From: Ignavibacteriae bacterium HGW-Ignavibacteriae-4
Lineage (GTDB): Bacteria > Bacteroidota > Ignavibacteria > Kapaibacteriales > UBA2268
Reading direction: 5' to 3'
DNA: 42,495 bases
Assembly: GCA_002839765.1 (NCBI GenBank)
Contig: PGYR01000035.1
Location: 1-42,495 of the forward strand
Shown here: positions 5,141 to 18,067 of the stretch, piece after piece
How positions within the stretch are numbered: the first letter of the stretch is position 1
Layout: each line of letters begins with the position of its first letter
Notes under the pieces: generated by a model
Databases searched by the model: none
What the model was told of the DNA's origin: nothing
What the model saw: the letters and a program-made list of their open reading frames with translations, nothing else
Made by a program: the position numbers and the translations under genes

Positions 5141-5734
5141 TTAATCTTTATACTTGAGCATATTCTCAACGTACTTTCCAATTATATCAAATTCCAGATT
5201 TACTCTGGTACCGGGTTGGAAATCCTTGAATGTAGTATATTCAAAAGTATGAGGGATAATAGCTACTGTGAATTTATTATCTTGTATTGTGGCAATAGTC
5301 AAACTAACACCATTGATAGTAATTGAACCTCTTTCAACTAAGTATTTTGCTGAGTTTTCTGGAATATCGAAAGTAAATAGCCAATTCTTTGTTTCTTTAA
5401 CTATGCTATGAACAGCTGTTGTAGTATCAGTATGACCTTGTACGTAATGCCCACCAAATCTATCACCTGCACTCATAGCTCGTTCCAAATTGACAGATGA
5501 ACCCAAAGCTAAATCTCCGAGGTTTGTTTTACGCATAGTCTCTTCAACTGCTGTGGCTTTGAAAGAGTTGTTTGTGAATGTTTCAACGGTTAAGCATACT
5601 CCATTCACACAAATTGAGTCATCTATATCAGCGTCTGCTAATATACTATTACATTCGATAACTAGCTCAACAGCTTCACCTGCTTTTTCAATCTTAGTTA
5701 TTTTCCCAACTTCTTCTATCAAACCTGTGAACAT
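5141..5734 (-). CDS. ribE: Riboflavin synthase, alpha subunit
   Basis: Catalyses dismutation of two 6,7-dimethyl-8-ribityllumazine molecules to riboflavin plus a pyrimidinedione (EC 2.5.1.9), the last step of riboflavin synthesis, in the cytosol. The 197-residue length is typical. It begins with the family signature MFTGLIEEVG and contains the two tandem lumazine-binding repeats: NGVCLTVE and GGHYVQGHTD in and after the N-terminal half, NGVSLTIA in the C-terminal half. Its ATG overlaps the RNase R stop by one base (TAATG), which suggests translational coupling. Other rib genes are not in this window. Riboflavin would feed FMN to the flavodoxin at 18143, but the two loci are not linked. Confidence 0.96.
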   Translation of the reverse strand: MFTGLIEEVGKITKIEKAGEAVELVIECNSILADADIDDSICVNGVCLTVETFTNNSFKATAVEETMRKTNLGDLALGSSVNLERAMSAGDRFGGHYVQGHTDTTTAVHSIVKETKNWLFTFDIPENSAKYLVERGSITINGVSLTIATIQDNKFTVAIIPHTFEYTTFKDFQPGTRVNLEFDIIGKYVENMLKYKD

Positions 5735-7890
5735 TATAACTTCTCAATAAATTCAAAATCAATTTGTGATTTACCAATGTTAATCTTTGCAATTTTTACT
5801 CTCAATCTAGTACCAATAGTGAATTCGGTTTTAGTTCGCTTACCTAGGAATTTCAGATTTTTCTCGTCAAATCGGTAATAATCATTTCCTAAATCTTTGA
5901 CATGCAGCAAACCTTCCACATTTAACTCGTCTAATATAAGGAATAATCCGAAATTAATAACACCAGTAACAGTACCGTTGTATTCATTCCCAACTTTATT
6001 ACGAACCATAATTACTGCAGCTAGTTTATTACTAGCTCTTTCCGCTTCCATAGACTTTCTCTCAGTAAGAGATATATGGTCTGAAACAGTTTTAGTAAAT
6101 GGTTTAAGGTAATCAATTCTAGATTTAGAAGCTTTACCATTAGATTTCATATACTCTTTGAGTAATCTATGAACTACCAAGTCGGCGTATCTTCTGATTG
6201 GAGATGTAAAGTGAGTGTAGTCTTCAAATCCTAGCCCGAAGTGACCATAATTTTTTTGTGAGTATATAGCTTTTGCCATAGAGCGTATTAATACTTGATT
6301 AATTACAGGTGAGTTCGGAGTATCTTCAAATTTATTAAGAATATTATTTATATCCTTAGCCCTTACTTCACTAACTTTTTTGAACTTATTACCAGTCAAA
6401 TGACTTATGAATTGGAATGCTTCATTAACTACAGCTCTATCTGGGTCTTCGTGTATTCTATAAATGAAGGGAAGAGTGTCTTTGTTACCAGCCTTTTTAC
6501 TTAATCCTTTTACAAATAATGTAACAGAACGATTAGCAAGCAACATAAACTCTTCAATCATTTGAGTGGATTTGGTAGCACTCTTTATATTACTTTTGAT
6601 AGGAATTCTATCTTCATTTAGTTCAAAACGAAGTTCAGAACTAGAGAAATTGATACCACCATTCTCAAATCTTTTTCTTCGTAGCTTTTGAGAAATTTCT
6701 GCTAGGGTTTGCATTAAAGCAGTATTGTCATCTTTACCACCATTTATTGTGTCTAGAGCTTCTTCATAGCTATATCTCTTTTTACTATTGATTAGAGTTT
6801 CGTGCAATTCATAGTGGATTAATTCATAATTGCTATCTAAAGTCATAAAGACAGAAAAAGCATTCCTATCTATGTTCGGCTTGAGTGAGCAAATATCATT
6901 CGAAAGTACCTCAGGTAGCATAGGCACAACTCTATCTACTAGATATGTGCTATTGCCCCTTTCTCGTGCCTCTATGTCTATCTCTGAGTTCTCTGGTACA
7001 TAGAAACTTACATCAGCTATGTGTACACCTAGAACTATATTATTATTTTCATCATACTCTAAAGAGATTGCATCATCGAAATCCTTTGCATCCGCTGGAT
7101 CAACTGTGATTATAAACTTATCTCTTATATCTTTTCTGCCCTTGCTTAATTTTGTTTCACTAGGGTCTTTTATTTGATTTGCTTCTTTTTGTACTTTGAT
7201 GGGGAATGTTTCATTTAGCTCATATTCATCTACAATCCTATTGAAAGCCGACCTTAAATCATCTATATTTTCGTTCACTACTTTTACCTTTACTTTTGGT
7301 GGCTTTTTCGGATTACTCCAATCTGTTAAGACTCCTTTGGCTTTTTTTCCTTCCAACAATCCTAAATCATCATGCCATTCTATTAAAAAATCATATCTAT
7401 ATTTATCAGGATTTGTTTTCAGATAGTATTCACCATCACTATATTCTACTGTTCCTTCTATATCACTGTTCTTTCTTTCTACTATATCTACTACTACACC
7501 GTATTGCTTACCTTTTTTAACATCATATAACTTTACCTTTACCTTATCACCATCCAAAGCAGTATAACTATGTTCATTATCTACATAGAATATGCTATTA
7601 TGCGAGTCATTCGTAACTACAACTGAGTGGCCTCTTTTGTAATTGTAGAAACCTTCAATTAAATCGGTAGAGTCATCAACTAAGCTGTATTTATTTTTAC
7701 TATTCTTAGTTATAAGATTATTCTCAGATAGGTCAATTAAGATTTCTTCTAAATCAGAAACTTCAATTCCATTAGAACTTGAGTCTAATTCTTTTAATAT
7801 CTGACTTATATTAAGCGGTTTAGCAGTATCTGATAATACTAGTAATAATTGGTCGGTGAGTTGTTCTTTATTCATATTATGAATAAACAC
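5734..7890 (-). CDS. rnr: Ribonuclease R (RNB-family 3'-5' exoribonuclease)
   Basis: Processive hydrolytic 3'-5' exoribonuclease able to degrade structured RNA; cytosolic. Domain order over 718 residues: N-terminal winged helix (about 6-70), cold-shock OB domains (about 75-230), RNB catalytic domain (about 245-590), S1 domain (about 630-715; YNGTVTGVINFGLFLILDE). The catalytic aspartates sit in VDPADAKDFDDA: Asp264, Asp270, Asp272 and Asp273 correspond to the metal-binding quartet of RNase II/R. Two starts are possible. ATG at 7890 overlaps the upstream gene by 14 bases; ATG at 7875 (MNKEQL) leaves a one-base gap to its stop and is the likelier start. Middle of a four-gene minus-strand operon. 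Confidence 0.95.
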   Translation of the reverse strand: MFIHNMNKEQLTDQLLLVLSDTAKPLNISQILKELDSSSNGIEVSDLEEILIDLSENNLITKNSKNKYSLVDDSTDLIEGFYNYKRGHSVVVTNDSHNSIFYVDNEHSYTALDGDKVKVKLYDVKKGKQYGVVVDIVERKNSDIEGTVEYSDGEYYLKTNPDKYRYDFLIEWHDDLGLLEGKKAKGVLTDWSNPKKPPKVKVKVVNENIDDLRSAFNRIVDEYELNETFPIKVQKEANQIKDPSETKLSKGRKDIRDKFIITVDPADAKDFDDAISLEYDENNNIVLGVHIADVSFYVPENSEIDIEARERGNSTYLVDRVVPMLPEVLSNDICSLKPNIDRNAFSVFMTLDSNYELIHYELHETLINSKKRYSYEEALDTINGGKDDNTALMQTLAEISQKLRRKRFENGGINFSSSELRFELNEDRIPIKSNIKSATKSTQMIEEFMLLANRSVTLFVKGLSKKAGNKDTLPFIYRIHEDPDRAVVNEAFQFISHLTGNKFKKVSEVRAKDINNILNKFEDTPNSPVINQVLIRSMAKAIYSQKNYGHFGLGFEDYTHFTSPIRRYADLVVHRLLKEYMKSNGKASKSRIDYLKPFTKTVSDHISLTERKSMEAERASNKLAAVIMVRNKVGNEYNGTVTGVINFGLFLILDELNVEGLLHVKDLGNDYYRFDEKNLKFLGKRTKTEFTIGTRLRVKIAKINIGKSQIDFEFIEKL

Positions 7891-9958
7891 TTACAGTGTT
7901 CGTTTTTTCCTTTGATACTTTTAGTGTGTCGTTTACATTTTGTATTGAGTTTCTACAGTTAGAATTACTCTCTAATTCACAAATACCGACACTTACTGTT
8001 ATGTTATAACGTTTATCTGCAAGATATAGTGATTCGCTTGCTATTTTATTTCTTATTCTTTCGGCCCATAACTTAGCAGTCTGTGCATTTTTACCAGGTA
8101 GTATTAATATCAGATTGTTATCTAATACACCTTTCAAGTCTAATTTATCGAGTGTGGAATCCAACGAACTATTAATAAATTTTAAAATTGTTTCATTGAT
8201 TCTTTCATCTTGATCATCGATCGATTTATATTTATCAAATCCAATCGAAACTAGTGAACTTTGATAATTGAAATTAGAAATTCTAGAGAGTTCTTTTTCA
8301 ATCTCAAATACAATAGACTTTTCAGTTAATAAACCACTTTCTGGATCTTTATCAAATCCAGTTTTTATCATCTCTAGTAAGTGATTGTTTTCTATTATAT
8401 TAGAAGCTTTACTTACTAGTGACTTGATAAATGCTCTTTCATTTCTGTCTAAATTAGTTCCTTCTTTCCCTTCTATAGCAATTGCACCATAAGTTTCGAT
8501 ATCAGTAGAAAGGGGTATAACATAGAAAAAACCAGAGCTCATATCTTCGCCTACATTAATTCTAATCAAATCACTATCTGGATTAACTAAATAAATTTCT
8601 TGGTTTGTATCTATACATTCGGAAAGAATTGAATTATCATTATTAAATACAAATTCTACTTCAAAATCTGCATTTTCAGTTTTAGCTACAGATTTAATTA
8701 TGTAGTTCGTTCTCGTATCATCAAGTAAAACGGAGTAAACATTTCTAGTATTGAATAAAGTATCAAGATTACTTACTAACTCATGATAAACTATATTATT
8801 TCCCTTAGAATGTACTGTTTTTTCGAGTTGATTATATGCTTTTAAGTACTTAGAATCTTGAGCTAAATCATATTTATCTGAATAACTTCTGATGAGACCT
8901 GATATTAGCTTCGCAAAATGACTAAGAAAGTTAACCATAATAGCATCATAAGCATCGGAATGTTTAGAATCAGCCGTTAATACACCTATAACATTTTTAT
9001 CATAAATTACTGGAATTCCAATGAAGGAATTAGTTCCAGAATTCGAATTATAATAGGGGAGAAGGTCTAACTCAGCTGCAGGATTTATATCCGTAAGTAT
9101 CTCTGGCTTCATACTTCTTGCTATCTGACTTACTATGTCATTTCCAGCGATAAATTTAGATTTACGATTGATAACAGTCTTACTCTCAGTAGCGAATGAA
9201 TTGAGAATAATTTCATTCTTATGTTCATTGTAAAAGAAATAGGCTGCAGTTCTAGTATTACTTACTGACCTAATTGCCATTAGTATCCTATTGATAAAAA
9301 ACTCAAATTCCTTATCAGGATGTTCTTTAAGTATAGGCATTTCTTCTAGAAGTCCTTGGGTAGGGATATTAATCTCACGTTTTCTAAATCTATTTGGAGC
9401 TTTGAATTCTTCAACTACTTGAGCTGGTTCTTCAACAAATCTCTTTTCTATATTAATTGCATCAATTGTCTTTTCTTCACTTTTACTACTTTCAACAGAC
9501 GACTCCTTTTCTACTTGATTATTAGAATCCTCTATCTCTTCTTTTTCCTTTTTTACAATCCTAAAACCTTCTTCATCACCCATTGTATTTTTAACAGGTT
9601 TATTAATAATTTTAGGTAATTCTATATCGTCATTTTCAGATTTAGTTTCCTTATCCTCTATATCACCGCTATAGTTCTCTATAACTTGTCTCACAGCTTC
9701 AGGGCTTTTTTTAACGGTAATTTTAAAATTGGGAGGGGGATTTGATTTAAACTTCGTTTCAAATGATGAAGACATACGAGTAGTTAACTTCATCAATAAA
9801 ACAACTACACCTAATATAGAAATACTAACTCCAATGAGTTTGATTGCTATTTCAGATATAAAAAGAGAGATGATTATCCCTATTAATATCATACTGATAG
9901 GCATGATATCACTAGGGATAAACAACGATTTGAATTCATTGAATTTTTTGTTGGACAT
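7877..9958 (-). CDS. Membrane protein with two GAF domains and a degenerate GGDEF domain
   Basis: 693 residues: two close transmembrane helices (about 19-60), a charged low-complexity linker rich in Glu/Lys (to about 190), a GAF domain (about 205-345; SFIGIPVIYDKNVIGVLTAD is characteristic), a second GAF-like domain (about 375-530; FFYVIPLSTDIETYGAIAIE), and a C-terminal domain laid out like a diguanylate cyclase (about 540-693). In the last domain the start DPESGLLTEKS and the late ITVSVGICEL correspond to cyclase motifs, but the signature GGDEF position reads LDNNL. It is therefore probably not a cyclase and may instead bind nucleotide or act as a scaffold. It is the first gene of the rnr-ribE operon, with a candidate promoter at 9997-10028. 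Ligand and output unknown. Confidence 0.75.
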   Translation of the reverse strand: MSNKKFNEFKSLFIPSDIMPISMILIGIIISLFISEIAIKLIGVSISILGVVVLLMKLTTRMSSSFETKFKSNPPPNFKITVKKSPEAVRQVIENYSGDIEDKETKSENDDIELPKIINKPVKNTMGDEEGFRIVKKEKEEIEDSNNQVEKESSVESSKSEEKTIDAINIEKRFVEEPAQVVEEFKAPNRFRKREINIPTQGLLEEMPILKEHPDKEFEFFINRILMAIRSVSNTRTAAYFFYNEHKNEIILNSFATESKTVINRKSKFIAGNDIVSQIARSMKPEILTDINPAAELDLLPYYNSNSGTNSFIGIPVIYDKNVIGVLTADSKHSDAYDAIMVNFLSHFAKLISGLIRSYSDKYDLAQDSKYLKAYNQLEKTVHSKGNNIVYHELVSNLDTLFNTRNVYSVLLDDTRTNYIIKSVAKTENADFEVEFVFNNDNSILSECIDTNQEIYLVNPDSDLIRINVGEDMSSGFFYVIPLSTDIETYGAIAIEGKEGTNLDRNERAFIKSLVSKASNIIENNHLLEMIKTGFDKDPESGLLTEKSIVFEIEKELSRISNFNYQSSLVSIGFDKYKSIDDQDERINETILKFINSSLDSTLDKLDLKGVLDNNLILILPGKNAQTAKLWAERIRNKIASESLYLADKRYNITVSVGICELESNSNCRNSIQNVNDTLKVSKEKTNTVSVYS

Positions 9959-9996
9959 CTATTATTCTATTTAAAACTATATAAATTGAACAATGC

Positions 9997-10028
9997 CAAA
10001 TATATAAGATTTGTTGTACTGTATCAAA
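9997..10028 (-). promoter_or_regulatory. Candidate Bacteroidota-type promoter of the GAF-rnr-ribE operon
   Basis: On the minus strand TTTG (10025-10028) is followed after 20 bases by TATATTTG (9997-10004), matching TTTG-N20-TAnnTTTG. The -7 box lies 38 bases before the ATG at 9958. This is one of the best promoter matches in the window. Confidence 0.55.
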
Positions 10029-10049
10029 TAATACTTGTAAACATATATA

Positions 10050-11024
10050 TTAATATTGGAATCTACCTATCAAATCCCAAGTGTAAGTTGTTTCAACTAA
10101 TTGATTAAACTTAAAATTGCCGACTTTACCCGTTAATAGTGCTTTTATTTTAGCTTGAGAATATTTTACATTACCGCTAGTATGTAAATCTATATTCATC
10201 TCTCCAGTCGCAACACCAGAAGTAATTACACAGTTTTTATCTAAATCAGGTAAGATTACATTTTCCATCGGGTTATTTAAAGTTAGACTATCCATTTTAG
10301 TAGATATGTGATATTCATTATTTGAAAAACCTTTAAAAGTATTATTCAAATCACCACTGAATGGTACATTACAAATGAAAAATTCAGATTCACTATTCCA
10401 CGAAGTATCTTTGGTTACTTCAAAAGGAGGATAAACCCCTTTGGGCACATCAAATGAGAATTTCAGCCTATCATTTGAGAGTGAATAAAGAATTTGATTT
10501 CTTTTGATTTCGTCGTGAGTTTTTGCGTATTGCATCTTTTCTGATTCTAATTGGTCACCATCTATTTTTGAGACATCACCATAAGGTGAGTAAAGCATAT
10601 TGAATGTCTGACCATATTGAACATACGAAGTGAAAAAATCCATATAATTCAGTGGCATGTCCATGTCATAATCAGTAGTTCTGTAATAGACATTTAATTC
10701 TTTAGAGGATAATCTATACTCCATAGAGTCTGTTTTAACTTCGACTAATAAAAATCCATTATCATCAACTGGACCAGGCACAAATACATTGAACCAATAA
10801 GTGACTGTTTTATCATATTCATTAACTGTACTATCCTCAAAGACTCTCTTTACTTTAGTTGTTTCTGTAAACCTATATATATGGTACACTAACTGACTTA
10901 GGTTAAAAGATACATCGTATTTAGGAACCTCAGGAACTGTTTCTGATTCAGTTTTTGAAGAATTTTGACTATAAGAAAATGAATTAATTGAAAATAAAAG
11001 TAAGAATAAAGTAATAATTCGCAT
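10050..11024 (-). CDS. Secreted hypothetical protein
   Basis: 324 residues with a Sec signal peptide (MRIITLFLLLFSINSFSYSQ, cleavage probably after SYS-Q or shortly behind). The mature part is soluble, beta-rich and acidic/aromatic, with segments such as YWFNVFVPGPVDDNGFLLVE and GVATGEMNIDLHTSGNVKYS. I see no transmembrane helix, lipobox or catalytic motif. The general pattern resembles uncharacterised periplasmic proteins common in Bacteroidota, but I cannot name the family. It is not clearly in an operon: a 91-base gap separates it from the next gene downstream and 154 bases from ndk upstream. No terminator hairpin is evident after it. Confidence 0.7.
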   Translation of the reverse strand: MRIITLFLLLFSINSFSYSQNSSKTESETVPEVPKYDVSFNLSQLVYHIYRFTETTKVKRVFEDSTVNEYDKTVTYWFNVFVPGPVDDNGFLLVEVKTDSMEYRLSSKELNVYYRTTDYDMDMPLNYMDFFTSYVQYGQTFNMLYSPYGDVSKIDGDQLESEKMQYAKTHDEIKRNQILYSLSNDRLKFSFDVPKGVYPPFEVTKDTSWNSESEFFICNVPFSGDLNNTFKGFSNNEYHISTKMDSLTLNNPMENVILPDLDKNCVITSGVATGEMNIDLHTSGNVKYSQAKIKALLTGKVGNFKFNQLVETTYTWDLIGRFQY

Positions 11025-11178: not shown

Positions 11179-11607
11179 CTAATGATTGATATTAACAATA
11201 TCAGATCTAGAGAAGAAGAAATTTGTTTCAATTGCTGCATTCTCATCAGAATCAGAACCATGTATTGCATTTGCTTCTATTCCAGCACCATACAATTTTC
11301 TTATAGTACCTTCTTCAGCATCAGCTGGATTAGTAGCACCAATTAATTTTCTAAAATCTTCTACTGCATTTTCTTTTTCTAAAGCAATAGGTACTACAGG
11401 ACCGCTTGTCATATAGTCTATTAATTCACCATAAAATGGTCTTTCTTTATGTACTTCATAAAAAGCACCAGCTTGTGCTCTTGTTAATCTAATTAATCTT
11501 AAACCATTTACTGTAAATCCAGCTTGAGTTATTTTAGCTACTATTTCGCCGATTACGTTTTTAGCTACCGCATCTGGTTTTATGATTGCTATTGTTTTGT
11601 TTGACAT
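11179..11607 (-). CDS. ndk: Nucleoside diphosphate kinase
   Basis: Transfers the gamma-phosphate between nucleoside tri- and diphosphates through a phosphohistidine (EC 2.7.4.6), balancing cytosolic NTP/dNTP pools. The 142-residue length is standard. It begins with the family's IAIIKPDAV and contains the active-site signature NAIHGSDS with the catalytic His116. It lies 38 bases behind sucD on the same strand and is closed by a strong terminator, so the pair is probably one transcript. Pairing with succinyl-CoA synthetase makes sense because Ndk is known in some bacteria to associate with that enzyme and interconvert its ATP/GTP product; physical association here is inference. Confidence 0.97.
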   Translation of the reverse strand: MSNKTIAIIKPDAVAKNVIGEIVAKITQAGFTVNGLRLIRLTRAQAGAFYEVHKERPFYGELIDYMTSGPVVPIALEKENAVEDFRKLIGATNPADAEEGTIRKLYGAGIEANAIHGSDSDENAAIETNFFFSRSDIVNINH

Positions 11608-11645: not shown

Positions 11646-12545
11646 TTATAATCCTAAAGCTTTCTTTGCAGTTGTACCCAGAGTACCTGGAGTATCAACA
11701 ACAAAAATACCTGCATCTTTCATAGCAGCTATTTTGTCTTCTGCAGATCCCTTACCACCAGCAACTATAGCGCCAGCGTGTCCCATTCTTCTTCCTGGAG
11801 GTGCTGTTCTACCAGCAATGAAACCTACAACTGGTTTTTTTACAAATTCTTTGATGTATGCAGCAGCTTCTTCTTCTGCACTTCCACCAATTTCACCAAT
11901 CATAACTATACATTCCGTTTCAGGATCTTCATTGAATAATTTGATAGCATCGATAAATTGGGTACCTATTATTGGATCACCACCAATACCAATACAAGTA
12001 GATTGACCTAAACCTTCTTCAGTTAATTGCTTTACAGCTTCATAAGTCAAAGTACCACTACGTGAAACTAATCCAACTTTACCTCTTGAATGTATAAAAC
12101 CTGGCATAATACCGATTTTAGCTTCACCTGGTGTAATTACACCAGGACAGTTTGGACCGATAAGTCTTGAATCTGAATTTAATAATGCAGATTTAACTGA
12201 AATCATATCTTTAACAGGAATACCCTCAGTAATACAAATAATCAATGGAATACCAGCTTCAATTGCTTCTAATATTGCATCAGCAGCAAATGGAGGTGGT
12301 ACAAAGATAACTGTTGCATTTGCACCTGTTTTGATTACGGCTTCTTTAACAGTGTCAAATACTGCTACATTTTTTTCAAATTTATTTATTTCGTTACCAT
12401 TATAGCTCGTTCCACCTTTACCTGGTGTAACCCCTGCTACTACGTTAGTACCGTATTCTATCATTTGCATAGTATGGAATGTACCTTCAGTACCAGTTAT
12501 ACCTTGCACTAATAATTTCGTGTCTTTGTTTACTAAAACGCTCAT
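11646..12545 (-). CDS. sucD: Succinyl-CoA synthetase, alpha subunit
   Basis: Alpha subunit of succinate-CoA ligase (EC 6.2.1.5), the TCA-cycle step coupling succinyl-CoA cleavage to nucleotide phosphorylation; cytosolic. At 299 residues it has normal length. The N-terminal CoA-binding Rossmann part contains [11 protein letters not shown] and VTPGKGG, followed by LIGPNCPG. The phosphohistidine loop [18 protein letters not shown] has catalytic His256. The partner beta gene (sucC) is absent here; the upstream neighbour is a divergent sensor-kinase gene, so sucC must be encoded elsewhere. A TAACTTTG box at 12587-12594 may be its promoter. Confidence 0.97.
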
Positions 12546-12633: not shown

Positions 12634-15600
12634 GTGGAGAAAAATATCAATTTAAAGCTATTCATAGTATATTCTTTTGTATTAATTCTATACATTTTGA
12701 ATGTACAATCATTACAATCCCAAACATACAAGTTAAGGGGTATTGACGTCAGAAACGGACTTTCTCAGAATTCGGTAAATTCTATTTATGAAGATAAATT
12801 TGGATTAATTTGGGTAGGTACTAATGACGGTTTAAATAGATTAGAAGGCGATAAGATAGAGATTTTCTATAGTGATGCAGAGAATAATTGTGCATTAAAA
12901 AGTGATAAAGTATTAGATATGAAGGAAGATAATAGAAACCGCTTGTGGTTGGCTACTTCTGGAATTGGGATTTCATATTATAATTATAAAAAGAATTGTT
13001 TTAGCTTTCTTGATATATCATACAAGGGTAATCAGGAGTTAGTGCAATCAATTGAAGTAGATACTGTTGATAATTCGTTATGGGTAGCAACTGATGGTGG
13101 TGGAGTATTTTACTATAACTATGTAACTAATAGGAAAAGAGATTATTTCAATAAAGTGAACAATGAAATTTTATCAACAGAGTTCAAAGCAATTAGAAAA
13201 ATTGGAAACAAAATATATGCAGGTAATGCCAAAGGTCAAATTATAGAATATAGTATATCTAAAAATTCAAAAAAAGTATATAATGTTGCTAATTCAAGAA
13301 TTATGAATATTGAGAAGCAAGATAATAGTCTATTTGTAACTACAGAAAGTAATGGTTATTTTTTATTTAACCCTATATCAAATCAAATAAATAAAAATAT
13401 AATAAATCTTACTGATGATATTGATAGTACTTATTTGTTAATAAAATCCTGCCAAAGAATAACTGATAATGAATTTGTAGTAGCTTCACTAGAGGGTATT
13501 TCATACATTCGAATAAATAATAACAATTTGACTTTGACAAAAAAAATTAGCAACAAGAATACAAATTTGGATTATAATTCATTTCTAAGTGTTCTAATAG
13601 ATTCAAAAGGAACCGAGTGGTATGGATCGAATGGATTTGGACTATTCTATAATAATGATTATTTCAACTCATTTAAAATAATAAAGAATAAAGAAAAAGA
13701 ACTATCATTTAGTTCAGTACGAAGTATTAGAAAGATTGATGATAAACTTTGGATAGGAGGTTATGGAGGTCTAAACAAGTATAGTGAGTTTAATAAAAAG
13801 ATGGAATATGTACCATATTCTGATCTTAATACTGAGACATGGGAATCATATATAGGTGCACAAAGTATTTATTGTTTTTTGCAAGATCCAAATAATTCTG
13901 ATATAGTATGGATAGGCAGTGAAGACAACGGATTATATAAGTATTCAAAGTCTAGAGATAAATATAAGTTCGTAAAGTTTAGTCAATTTAATGAGTTAGA
14001 TAATAGACTGAACTCTGTATTTACAATATGTTTATATAACAAGAATTTTATAATCGGAACTTCAAATGGCATTATTGCATTCGAGCCAAAAACGGAGACA
14101 TTTGGATGGATAGAATCTATAAATGAGGAAATAGGTAAAGATATACTACATGTGAGGAATATGTTTGTAGAAGGTAATCTACTTTACTGCGTTTTTGAAG
14201 GAGTTGGGACTTATACATACTCATTTGAAAATGCAAAACTAACTCAACTCGCAAATAATTTTCCTGGTATAGATAGAAGAATGTTCACCAATGCAAATTC
14301 TATTATACAATATGGAGACAAATTAATACTCTGTACTAAGGAAAAAGGCTTCTATATACTTAATCCAATTGATAGTTCCTTCACTAATTTCTACACTGGT
14401 AATGGATTAAATAATAATTGCGTTTATCAAATATTAGATGATGGAGACAATAATCTATGGGCATCTACTAATAAGGGAATCTCAAAAATTGATTTGTCTA
14501 CAAATATAATTACCAATTTCGATAACAAAATATTCGAATTGAATTCAGAATATAATTTAAATGCAGCTTTTAAATTAAATAACAATTCACTTTATTTTGG
14601 CGGTACTGACGGTATAGTTAATTTCAATCCTGCATCCATTTCAAATTTCGAGTTTAATCCAAACCTAATAATTAAATCAATCGAAATGAATTATAAAGAT
14701 AGTCTATACTTCTATTATTTTGTAACAGATGATACAATAAATGTATCATTTTTAGATGATTTAGTAGAAGTTGAAGTTATGACAGATGAGTATTTATTTA
14801 ATAAAGGTATAAAATATGAATACAGATGGAACGAATCAAGATGGATTTCTGGAACTGGAAGAAAAATACGATTAACAAATTTAATAATTGGAATGAATAG
14901 GATTGATATAAGAGTTTTCGATAATAATGGTGATATCAATCAAAGTATTACATTCTATATTAACCAGGAAGAAAGTATTTTAACAACAAGTACACTAATT
15001 GCTAGTTCTGCAATTTTTCTTCTAATAGTATTATATTTCTTATATAGAAGATTTATTCGTAATAGCACTAAAAAGAATAAAATACTATCAAATCAAAATG
15101 AAAAACTTGCCAAGGAATTAGTTCAGATCAAATACTTCAAGAACTTAATAGAAAATAATATATCAAGTGTAATTTGGAAAACAGATAAGAATTTCAATTT
15201 TGAATATTTCACTTCAAACATATACAGTTACTATGGTATAAATAAAGATTTTGAATTAATGAACTTATCAAATTTATATGTTCAAGAAGATATGATAGAA
15301 CTTAAAGAAGAGATATTTAAACTAAAACATTTCAGGAAAAAAATTGAAAGGAAGTTATTTCATAAAAGACCATTCAAGACAATAAATGAATATTCTGATG
15401 TTATTATTACTATTACAGTTGATAAGAATGGCAAATATGAAGGTCTAATCGGTGTAGTAGTAGATAATAAAGAGCATCAGAAAGCCAAACAACAAATTAT
15501 AGAAAGAGAAGAGCTGTTTAGTACATTAGTTAGTACTATACTCGAACCAGTATTGATTACTAACTGGAGTGGTGAAATACTTTTTGCTAATAATGAGGCG

Positions 15601-16971
15601 AAGAATGTTTTAGAAATAACTCAGAATGATATTTCTGAAAAGAATTTGTTTGAATATTTAGATGATTCTTTGAGTAATGAACTTAGAAAGGATTGCTATT
15701 TAGTCAAAAATGGAGAGTCATTCGAAAAGAAACAATATGAATTAAAAGTACAAGACAAACAAAAGACAATAGAAGGTAATGGTACCCAGTTAACATACTT
15801 CGGGAAAACAGTTTTTCTTCTCACATTTAGAGATGTAACTCAAAAGATAAAACTAATAAAGGAATTGACAATTGCCAAGATAGAAGCTGAGAGAAGTTCT
15901 GAATTAAAAACTATGTATCTATCTAATTTGACTCATGAACTCAAAACACCTATAAACGCAATATCTGGATTTACTGATATTATTATTTCAAAAAATGAAG
16001 ATAATACGCAAAAAAACTATCTGCAATCAATAAAAACAAGTTCAAATTTATTACTTCAATTAATAAATGACCTGTTGTTTTATACAAAAGCTGAAACTGG
16101 AAGACTTGAGTTAAGACCTGTACCAACTAATATTAAAACTCTATTCTCTGAAATTGAAAATATATTCAACTTAGAATTGAAAAAGAAGGATTTAAAGTTA
16201 ACAAAGGTAATTAATACTAATGGTATTGAACATTTATTAAATATAGATCAGTTGAAATTCAAACAAATACTTATTAATTTGATGAATAACTCTATTAAAT
16301 ATACCGAAAGTGGTAAAATTACTGTTAGTATAATATTAAGTTCAGTGAGTAAATCACAAGTTGACTTGTTACTTGTTATAGAAGATACAGGAAAAGGAAT
16401 ACCTAAATCCAGATTGAAAGAAATATTCTCAGCCTTCAAACAAGTTAATATTTCGGATGAGAATGTTGGATTTGGATTGGGATTGGCAATTGTAAAACGT
16501 ATTTTAGATACTATGAACGGTACTATAGTTGTAGAATCTGAATTGGAAAAAGGAAGTAAATTCACTGTTCAGATCAAAAATATAAATTTGGTAATTAATA
16601 AAAGAATAAAACTAGAAGTCTCTAACAACACTAGAAACAAATTGATTGAAAAATTAATAACAAGAGATAATAAATTAAGTATATATTCTTACGAAATACT
16701 TGATGAAATGCAACTTATGATAAATGGTAGATTCACAAGTAAGTTAAAGAATATAAATACAAACTTCCTACTAAAAGACATAAGTGAGTTTGCAGAGCAA
16801 CTTCACAATGTTGCCGAAGAAAAGGGGATAGACTTTATAAAATACTATGCTGAAGAGTTAAAAAATGCAACAAAAGCAATAGAAGTAGAAAAAATTAATT
16901 ATTTGCTTGAAAATTTTTATAAATTAGTTGAACTAATTAATAGATTAATGGAAAAACGGAATGGAAACTAG
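12634..16971 (+). CDS. Two-component propeller sensor histidine kinase, lacking a receiver domain
   Basis: 1445 residues. The start is GTG; no in-frame ATG precedes the signal-anchor region that follows. After it come about 14 propeller repeats of the type GLIWVGTNDGLNRL or NLWASTNKGISKID (about 35-670), i.e. two seven-bladed periplasmic propellers. Then a Y_Y_Y-type beta domain (about 690-775), a transmembrane helix (about 782-806), two PAS-like regions (about 835-950 and 965-1075), HisKA with His1101 in LTHELKTP, and a HATPase domain (N-box Asn1215/Asn1219, EDTGKGIP at 1250-1257, GFGLGL at 1279-1284). The tail (about 1380-1435) resembles the helical segment that usually follows a receiver in hybrid kinases, but no receiver is present. 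The next gene overlaps by 11 bases and begins with one. Signal unknown; such propellers often sense glycans or surface cues. Confidence 0.9.
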   Translation: MEKNINLKLFIVYSFVLILYILNVQSLQSQTYKLRGIDVRNGLSQNSVNSIYEDKFGLIWVGTNDGLNRLEGDKIEIFYSDAENNCALKSDKVLDMKEDNRNRLWLATSGIGISYYNYKKNCFSFLDISYKGNQELVQSIEVDTVDNSLWVATDGGGVFYYNYVTNRKRDYFNKVNNEILSTEFKAIRKIGNKIYAGNAKGQIIEYSISKNSKKVYNVANSRIMNIEKQDNSLFVTTESNGYFLFNPISNQINKNIINLTDDIDSTYLLIKSCQRITDNEFVVASLEGISYIRINNNNLTLTKKISNKNTNLDYNSFLSVLIDSKGTEWYGSNGFGLFYNNDYFNSFKIIKNKEKELSFSSVRSIRKIDDKLWIGGYGGLNKYSEFNKKMEYVPYSDLNTETWESYIGAQSIYCFLQDPNNSDIVWIGSEDNGLYKYSKSRDKYKFVKFSQFNELDNRLNSVFTICLYNKNFIIGTSNGIIAFEPKTETFGWIESINEEIGKDILHVRNMFVEGNLLYCVFEGVGTYTYSFENAKLTQLANNFPGIDRRMFTNANSIIQYGDKLILCTKEKGFYILNPIDSSFTNFYTGNGLNNNCVYQILDDGDNNLWASTNKGISKIDLSTNIITNFDNKIFELNSEYNLNAAFKLNNNSLYFGGTDGIVNFNPASISNFEFNPNLIIKSIEMNYKDSLYFYYFVTDDTINVSFLDDLVEVEVMTDEYLFNKGIKYEYRWNESRWISGTGRKIRLTNLIIGMNRIDIRVFDNNGDINQSITFYINQEESILTTSTLIASSAIFLLIVLYFLYRRFIRNSTKKNKILSNQNEKLAKELVQIKYFKNLIENNISSVIWKTDKNFNFEYFTSNIYSYYGINKDFELMNLSNLYVQEDMIELKEEIFKLKHFRKKIERKLFHKRPFKTINEYSDVIITITVDKNGKYEGLIGVVVDNKEHQKAKQQIIEREELFSTLVSTILEPVLITNWSGEILFANNEAKNVLEITQNDISEKNLFEYLDDSLSNELRKDCYLVKNGESFEKKQYELKVQDKQKTIEGNGTQLTYFGKTVFLLTFRDVTQKIKLIKELTIAKIEAERSSELKTMYLSNLTHELKTPINAISGFTDIIISKNEDNTQKNYLQSIKTSSNLLLQLINDLLFYTKAETGRLELRPVPTNIKTLFSEIENIFNLELKKKDLKLTKVINTNGIEHLLNIDQLKFKQILINLMNNSIKYTESGKITVSIILSSVSKSQVDLLLVIEDTGKGIPKSRLKEIFSAFKQVNISDENVGFGLGLAIVKRILDTMNGTIVVESELEKGSKFTVQIKNINLVINKRIKLEVSNNTRNKLIEKLITRDNKLSIYSYEILDEMQLMINGRFTSKLKNINTNFLLKDISEFAEQLHNVAEEKGIDFIKYYAEELKNATKAIEVEKINYLLENFYKLVELINRLMEKRNGN

Positions 16972-18067
16972 CAAAGGGAAAATACTAATAGTTGACGATA
17001 ACCCAACTAACATACAAGTTGTAGGGAATATATTGACTGAAAAAGGATTTGATATTGCATTTGCTCAATCAGGAGAAAAAGCAATAGAGCAGGTTCTCCA
17101 CACCGATTATGACTTGATACTATTAGATATTATGATGCCTGAGAAAGATGGTTTTGAGATATGTGAAACTCTAAAAGCAAACCCTCAGACAAAGGAAATC
17201 CCAATTATTTATCTTACTGCAAAATCTGATATAGATTCAATTATTAGAGGACTCCGTAATGGTGGTATAGACTATATTAGCAAACCATTCATCAAAGAGG
17301 AATTAATAGTAAGGGTTGAAAATCAGATTATGATGAAGAAAATTCAAGATGAATTAGTATTTGCTAATCGTTCTAAAGATAAATTCTTTTCTATAATTGC
17401 ACATGATTTAAAAAGTCCTATTAGTGCATTTAAAAATATTACAGATGTTCTAGTTCGTGATTATGATGATTTTGATAGAGAAGATATACATGATTTCGTT
17501 AAGAAACTGAATGAATCAGCTATTAATGTTTATAAACTTTTGGATGATTTGCTAGAATGGTCTAGAAACCAAAATAATAAAATAACATTTGATCCAAGTT
17601 TAATTTTACTCTCTAAGCTTTCTGAAAATATAATTGATTTGTTAGGTAATAACATAGAAAGAAAAGAATTAGAAGTAATAAATAAAATAGATGAAGACAT
17701 AAAAGTATATGCCGATTTGAATATGATAAATACAGTACTTAGAAATCTGATTTCTAATGCTATTAAATTCACTCAAATAGGTGGCAAAATAGAGGTTGGA
17801 TGCTCGGATTACGATGATGATAGTATGATTGTTTGGGTGAAAGATAATGGTGTAGGTATGCAACAATCTGATATTGAGAAATTATTTAAAATTGAAATAC
17901 ATCATACTACTCATGGAACTGACGAAGAGGTAGGAACAGGACTTGGATTAATACTTTGCCAAGACTTTATATTGAAGCATAATGGAAAAATTTGGGTAGA
18001 GAGTGTATATGGCGAAGGATCAACATTCTTTTTCACAATCCCAAAAGTGGATATAAATAATCTATAA
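16961..18067 (+). CDS. Receiver-histidine kinase hybrid (REC at N-terminus)
   Basis: A 368-residue cytosolic protein with no membrane segment. The receiver domain (about 5-125) has the acidic pocket in ILIVDDNPTN, phospho-acceptor Asp56 in LILLDIMMPEKDG, and the conserved Thr/Lys near YLTAKS and SKPF. A HisKA domain follows with His148 in IIAHDLKSP, then a HATPase domain with VKDNGVGM and GTGLGLILCQ. The gene begins 11 bases inside the end of the propeller kinase gene, implying translational coupling. Known logic of such pairs suggests that the propeller kinase phosphorylates Asp56 and this controls the second kinase; the final output regulator is not in the window. Confidence 0.92.
   Translation: METSKGKILIVDDNPTNIQVVGNILTEKGFDIAFAQSGEKAIEQVLHTDYDLILLDIMMPEKDGFEICETLKANPQTKEIPIIYLTAKSDIDSIIRGLRNGGIDYISKPFIKEELIVRVENQIMMKKIQDELVFANRSKDKFFSIIAHDLKSPISAFKNITDVLVRDYDDFDREDIHDFVKKLNESAINVYKLLDDLLEWSRNQNNKITFDPSLILLSKLSENIIDLLGNNIERKELEVINKIDEDIKVYADLNMINTVLRNLISNAIKFTQIGGKIEVGCSDYDDDSMIVWVKDNGVGMQQSDIEKLFKIEIHHTTHGTDEEVGTGLGLILCQDFILKHNGKIWVESVYGEGSTFFFTIPKVDINNL

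Follow-up and report, generated by a model that had tools for sequence, protein, structure and literature searches.

Proteins with a degenerate GGDEF domain are known as receptors of cyclic di-GMP (c-di-GMP). In FimX and PopA, a non-catalytic GGDEF fold acts as a signalling module; FimX also has an EAL domain, and the organisms carrying these two proteins use c-di-GMP. GdpP/YybT joins a transmembrane (TM) hairpin and a sensor domain to a degenerate GGDEF domain, and GAF-linked diguanylate cyclases place a GAF domain before the GGDEF domain. PelD of Pseudomonas and Bacillus cereus combines a membrane part, a GAF domain and a catalytically dead GGDEF domain; the B. cereus protein binds c-di-GMP through the RxxD motif (inhibitory site, or I-site) of that domain, and PelD of streptococci, which are not known to use c-di-GMP, has lost it (PMC7112168). 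Here, we analysed a gene on a 42,495-nucleotide stretch (hereafter the window) of contig PGYR01000035.1 from Ignavibacteriae bacterium HGW-Ignavibacteriae-4. Its product belongs to a family in which a pseudo-GGDEF domain is conserved where c-di-GMP enzymes appear mostly or entirely lost, a finding that appears better supported and more interesting than the tie to RNA decay that an earlier note on this DNA had proposed from the adjacent RNase R gene. The protein and its parts are as follows.

7877..9958, reverse strand: coding sequence of 693 residues with an ATG start, comprising TM hairpin, linker, GAF1, GAF2 and pseudo-GGDEF (open reading frame and profile matches)
9779..9907, reverse strand: hydrophobic hairpin, residues 18-60, read as two TM helices with a minimal loop (sequence and hydropathy)
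9638..9778, reverse strand: conserved juxtamembrane segment, residues 61-107 (comparison among congeners)
9389..9637, reverse strand: fast-evolving part of the acidic linker, residues 108-190 (nonsynonymous divergence, dN, and composition)
8864..9319, reverse strand: GAF1, residues 214-365 (profile match; slowest-evolving globular part)
8384..8863, reverse strand: GAF2, residues 366-525 (profile match)
7880..8359, reverse strand: degenerate GGDEF domain, residues 534-693 (profile matches and residue alignment)
8111..8125, reverse strand: LDNNL in place of GG(D/E)EF, residues 612-616 (L612-D613-N614-N615-L616; alignment)
8138..8149, reverse strand: DKLD where the RxxD inhibitory site would be expected, residues 604-607 (alignment)

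The earlier note had called this a membrane GAF-GAF-degenerate GGDEF protein with LDNNL at the active site and a long acidic linker, and the open reading frame (ORF), the Pfam and NCBIfam matches and the alignment agree with it on each point. As in GAF-linked cyclases, the 693-residue protein passed the Pfam cut-offs for GAF_2 (64.6 bits; cut-off 28.6), GAF_3 (39.0; 27) and GGDEF (PF00990; 34.9; 23.8), as well as that of the NCBIfam GGDEF domain model (43.8; 37.4), and its linker (residues 96-213) holds 31 D/E and 20 K/R among 118 residues. The membrane part consists of about 41 hydrophobic residues with one short polar turn between them; it appears as a single merged peak in a crude hydropathy scan and as a helix over residues 22-60 in a low-confidence AlphaFold model. 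The N-terminus is best read as a hairpin without a periplasmic domain, a predicted topology under which the protein would be attached to the membrane as the earlier note had it, with no room for the periplasmic domain of an extracellular sensor. The same crude scan, run on 52 near-full-length members from the order, saw two segments at the N-terminus in 35 of them and a single one in the other 17.

Orthologues were found in 59 of the 60 nearest genomes, own genome included, the sole miss being a genome that is 72% complete. Profile searches (E<=1e-30) detected them in 158/197 genomes of the class and in 85/296 genomes of the phylum, 14 of the latter outside the class, and all 50 aligned members examined matched both GAF_2 and GGDEF (the latter at E<=0.001). 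One canonical cyclase, at locus L089, was left out of the family. A literature search, whose coverage excluded most subscription papers and bioRxiv, returned no title or abstract opening that concerned such a GAF-GGDEF family or a pair of degenerate GGDEF protein and RNase R. The family represents a conserved, unstudied protein encoded beside housekeeping genes in Ignavibacteriota-type bacteria.

Examination of the active site set the family apart from GAF-linked cyclases. The GG(D/E)EF motif was present in none of the 99 raw family proteins (59 from the order, 40 from outside it), and neither the metal-binding Asp nor the catalytic Glu was found in any of 96 aligned members, three proteins with a missing or cut GGDEF part (L048, L081 and L088) being excluded from residue counts. 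The second Asp of the DxD motif was retained in 93/96. Judged by its residues, the GGDEF domain is predicted to be catalytically dead across the family, which upholds the earlier view that c-di-GMP synthesis is unlikely. Atypical AGDEF cyclases are reported to exist (PMC3974145), yet an atypical but active cyclase is hardly credible for a family in which every member lacks the motif, the metal Asp and the Glu, and we rejected it on these counts. The family profile nevertheless matched solved GGDEF structures at the sequence level (3ign, E 1.7e-27; PleD, 5e-12), with FimX also among the matches, so the expected relation of the C-terminal domain to GGDEF structures is seen by sequence profile only; the AlphaFold model made with the window protein plus three congeners had a mean predicted local distance difference test (pLDDT) score of 33.7, too poor for a fold comparison.

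The same TM hairpin, sensor domain and degenerate GGDEF domain invite comparison with GdpP, in which case the degenerate domain would hydrolyse or bind ATP or GTP. Neighbouring ndk and NUDIX genes, whose products handle nucleotides, and matches to PF24898 in 2/50 members are in keeping with such a unit, which we nonetheless hold to be quite improbable: the other 48 members lack a PF24898 match, GAF domains replace PAS, none of the six families that the 50 members match is DHH/DHHA1, and the metal Asp and Glu are gone throughout. Assignment to GdpP was rejected on the DHH/DHHA1 and PF24898 results.

We then asked how much of a c-di-GMP system surrounds the protein. PF00990 matches occurred in 56 of the 59 nearest genomes, and the family protein was the sole match in 54 of these 56. 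The two exceptions were the window's own genome (G000) and G016. The additional GGDEF-EAL protein of G016 is encoded on a contig of 63.5% G+C content (GC), against 31.8% for another contig of that genome. No canonical GGDEF protein was found in the three other genomes of the genus, and no PilZ domain in any of the 59. EAL domains were detected in two of the 59, on contig C3 of the own assembly and on the GC-rich contig of G016, both foreign-looking, and in 1/197 genomes of the class, again on C3. In an early census, four sequenced Bacteroidetes were noted to lack diguanylate cyclases (PMC1183210). The family thus offers a natural experiment in which a signalling domain outlives its messenger, being kept in 158 of 197 class genomes against a single EAL-bearing genome and few canonical GGDEF proteins, and a GGDEF annotation in these genomes is no proof of c-di-GMP signalling. 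It differs in this respect from PelD, which lost its GGDEF domain in streptococci (PMC7112168); retention of the domain here suggests that it serves another use.

The inhibitory site offers an additional view of this history. RxxD was intact in 8/8 members from outside the class (taken from 8 of the 14 such genomes found), 18/32 members from the class outside the order, 21/52 from the order outside the genus and 0/4 from the genus, where the position reads DKLD or NELD; family-wide, 47/96 members have it. Of the 14 genomes outside the class, the 13 that were tested contained 6-10 GGDEF matches each, family protein included, and their top-scoring GGDEF loci read RxxD...GGEEF in 10/10 fetched. 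Such a gradient would be expected of a former I-site receptor whose ligand was lost later. A receptor whose degenerate domain still binds c-di-GMP or another cyclic dinucleotide in the manner of PelD would fit the frequent RxxD, the layout of TM part, GAF and degenerate GGDEF domain known from PelD (PMC7112168) and the canonical GGDEF proteins of the own assembly, not all of which are proven foreign. We consider it unlikely for the window protein. This protein has two GAF domains and DKLD in place of RxxD, and its neighbourhood is another one (DUF6263 and rnr; pel genes were not searched for); PilZ is absent and EAL confined to foreign-looking contigs as described above, G000 and G016 are the only ones of the 59 genomes with a further GGDEF domain, and no PelD structure, judged by PDB code, was among the 60 PDB matches of the family profile.

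Rates of evolution were compared among congeners using dN, because synonymous divergence (dS) was mostly high or saturated. Residues 1-107, the hairpin and juxtamembrane segment, gave values of 0.016-0.028 and GAF1 0.013-0.027, both below those of whole RNase R (0.034-0.074); GAF2 gave 0.09-0.34, the GGDEF part 0.07-0.20 and linker residues 108-190 0.48-0.98. Purifying selection is therefore strongest on the hairpin, juxtamembrane segment and GAF1, and the GGDEF domain is not in free decay.

On balance, we lean towards a protein without catalytic activity that is tethered to the membrane and serves in the cytosol as signal relay or scaffold, a former c-di-GMP-receptor-like protein kept for another job. 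The hairpin would keep the protein at the cytosolic side of the membrane; GAF1, which together with the hairpin is under the strongest constraint, may bind a cytosolic ligand or partner, and the resulting change would pass via GAF2 to the pseudo-GGDEF domain, a putative module for dimerisation or interaction. The probable ancestor of the family is a PelD-like receptor that had an intact RxxD, and may have bound c-di-GMP, when its GGDEF domain was already dead. The class would then have lost most or all of its c-di-GMP toolkit and retained the protein for a task independent of c-di-GMP; decay of the old nucleotide site would have followed, completely so in the window genus. The rnr gene would be a co-directional neighbour that the ancestor of the order already had. 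The ligand-sensing scaffold of the earlier note is thus retained in part: the protein appears to be non-catalytic and to use its GAF domains in signalling or as a scaffold, and we infer the scaffold role itself. A bolder version, which we regard as rather unlikely, makes the pseudo-GGDEF domain a class-wide hub with a new ligand or partner, a receptor that outlived its messenger and came to govern transcription or RNA turnover as a core regulator, its fossil I-site recording the loss; a sigma factor gene lies beside it in some orders and the RNase R gene in the window order.

Several observations weigh against the relay or scaffold reading. Evolution is faster in GAF2 and the GGDEF part than elsewhere in the folded protein, and the membrane anchor is not family-wide, since the crude hydropathy scan gave no N-terminal hydrophobic segment in 12/40 relatives outside the order. 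The eight outgroup members with RxxD stem from only four families, and the motif is kept in the 18 and 21 class members counted above although few c-di-GMP enzymes are visible there; it could have a structural role, which would weaken the case for a receptor origin. The scarcity of EAL and PilZ holds for the families searched, PilZ in the 59 nearest genomes and HD-GYP not at all. A second GAF-GGDEF family in the class, mostly of about 340-370 residues (L139-L141, L143-L152), has R[YF]G[FVPAS]DE[FILMV] in place of RxGGDEF; 13 of the 14 loci fetched read R[YF]GxDE and one, on a small contig of G220, is canonical. It is possibly another dead or altered cyclase, and its R[YF]GxDE proteins might be active.

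The own assembly adds to these points: its contigs C3, C20 and C88 each encode one canonical GGDEF protein. Correlation of composition with the window was 0.945 and 0.967 for parts of C3, 0.923 for C88 and 0.823 for C20, values that do not stand out by themselves because 20 other own contigs ranged from 0.843 to 0.988, save that C20 is the lowest and that GC peaks in a 15-kb part of C3 (0.385 versus 0.293-0.367). Shine-Dalgarno-like sites preceded 16/24 ORFs on C3, compared with 3/31 in the window, 1/26 on congener stretches and 37/158 on the 20 other contigs; they were also rich on C40 (8/10) and C60 (7/11), with 2/4 on C88 and 1/3 on C20. C3, bearer of the sole EAL domain of the assembly, is thus probably foreign by two measures, and C40 and C60 are, with it, probable contamination. 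Neither composition nor the number of genes tells where C20 and C88 come from, and c-di-GMP may therefore occur in the source organism.

The earlier note had placed the gene at the head of an RNase R operon and suggested a link between a membrane sensor and RNA decay. In the window, the gene lies in a same-strand array, sucD-ndk-DUF6263-[GAF-GGDEF gene]-rnr-ribE, with the following features.

5734..7875, reverse strand: rnr, RNase R, 713 residues from an ATG start (TIGR02063 and homologue alignment)
5141..5734, reverse strand: ribE, riboflavin synthase, downstream neighbour (profile matches)
9959..10049, reverse strand: 91-bp intergenic region ahead of the GAF-GGDEF gene (congener comparison)
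9997..10028, reverse strand: Bacteroidota-type promoter-like sequence TTTG-N20-TATATTTG (present in 4/4 congeners)
10050..11024, reverse strand: DUF6263 protein, upstream neighbour kept in many genomes of the order (profile and relatives' loci)
11179..11607, reverse strand: presumably ndk, upstream neighbour kept in many genomes (relatives' loci)
11646..12545, reverse strand: presumably sucD, upstream neighbour kept in many genomes (relatives' loci)

RNase R was identified by its equivalog model (TIGR02063, 655.1 bits; cut-off 597.85). Its ATG lies at 7875, so that a single base (7876) separates it from the upstream stop codon; an alternative, longer ORF with a GTG start would overlap by 14 bases, but homologues align from the ATG. 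The tight spacing, given earlier as an overlap or a 1-base gap, was correct in both forms. The 91-bp gap has the same length in the four congeners, with 87-95% identity to the window, unlike the coding sequence, where dS is high (1.2-2.6). Its motif fits the Bacteroidota promoter consensus; with six occurrences in the window on both strands versus 2.8 expected from simple shuffles, it is weak alone, and conservation is the stronger point. The GAF-GGDEF gene and rnr are probably co-transcribed. The operon claim is thus borne out as to a promoter-like region of the gene's own, and qualified by its position inside the longer array from sucD to ribE.

Of the 59 genomes in which the order carries the gene, two (L048 and L081) were excluded for contig ends; rnr was adjacent on the same strand in 28/57 and not in 29/57, with links in six of ten families (f1 to f10: 15/34, 0/4, 3/3, 3/3, 3/3, 0/1, 0/2, 3/3, 0/3 and 1/1). 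Three unlinked scores rest on short downstream sequence (L054, 427 bases; L059, 495; L060, 956), and in two unlinked genomes (L058 and L061) rnr lies 2.6 and 5.2 kb upstream. L118, missed by clustering, is absent from the neighbour table; BLAST placed sucD and ndk upstream of it and rnr about 1.4 kb downstream. Conservation of the pair, anticipated by the earlier note, is therefore complete in the genus (4/4) and partial in the order, with only 15/34 in the window's family f1, a mixed outcome for the test of linkage in close relatives that the note had set. On the gene tree, linkage required about 10 changes versus 21 in shuffles (0/500 as clustered), at least three of them forced by well-supported branches.

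The one-base gap, the adjacency in six families, the tree clustering, the upstream copies in L058 and L061 and the promoter-like region ahead of the pair could all suit a membrane receptor for RNase R, which would recruit or gate the enzyme via the GAF and pseudo-GGDEF domains as a degradosome-like tether particular to the order. Several results make such a receptor improbable. Clustering on the tree is also expected from inheritance alone, and the pair is broken in 29/57 genomes while the gene is kept in nearly all. RNase R scored above cut-off in 51 of the 59 nearest genomes, with partial matches in six more; G026 and G029 gave only S1-domain matches despite carrying the GAF-GGDEF protein, and RNase R was present in 12/12 class genomes without that protein. 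Neither obligate linkage nor obligate co-occurrence, as would mark a tethering factor, was thus observed. Within the genus, G000 and G003 have the most similar copies of sucD, ndk, DUF6263 and the GAF-GGDEF gene; for rnr (0.915) and ribE (0.970) the closest pair is G001 and G002, whose GAF-GGDEF genes reach 0.725. This discordance (window 5141-7875 against L051-L053) is suggestive of a separate exchange of rnr-ribE, its breakpoint close to the junction, and the two parts seem inherited apart.

In part of the class, the array runs sucD-ndk-NUDIX-[variable]-GAF-GGDEF gene, followed at 39 loci outside the order by deoB (16/39), EutN (17/39), a sigma-70 gene (RpoD; 29/39) or rnr (1/39); one representative of the sigma-70 neighbour has regions 1.2 to 4. 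Both array halves are joined in L099, L103 and L120. The downstream place is thus taken by two or more different partners, rnr among them. The link to rnr is ancestral to the order and was often lost, rnr being an old but dispensable neighbour, and a special tie to RNA decay, still conceivable, is weakly supported.

Other features of these loci were also recorded. An EutN/CcmL shell-vertex gene pair (L099, 7704-8269; the 17 EutN loci above) often lies between the GAF-GGDEF gene and the sigma factor gene. That these neighbours are independent of microcompartments was rejected: 14 of 16 tested genomes (besides own) had EutN in the array, and bacterial microcompartment (BMC) shell genes were found in 14/14. 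Some relatives have genes for a NamZ exo-beta-N-acetylmuramidase and for an NlpC/P60 protein on either side of the array (L099, 2919-4187 and 9187-9813). Two adjacent DUF6263-like proteins are encoded upstream in many members of the order (L044, 4699-5748), where the window has one (10050-11024). Further upstream, window positions 12634-18067 encode a predicted 1445-residue hybrid-sensor-like protein, followed by a putative response regulator with a kinase-like C-terminus.

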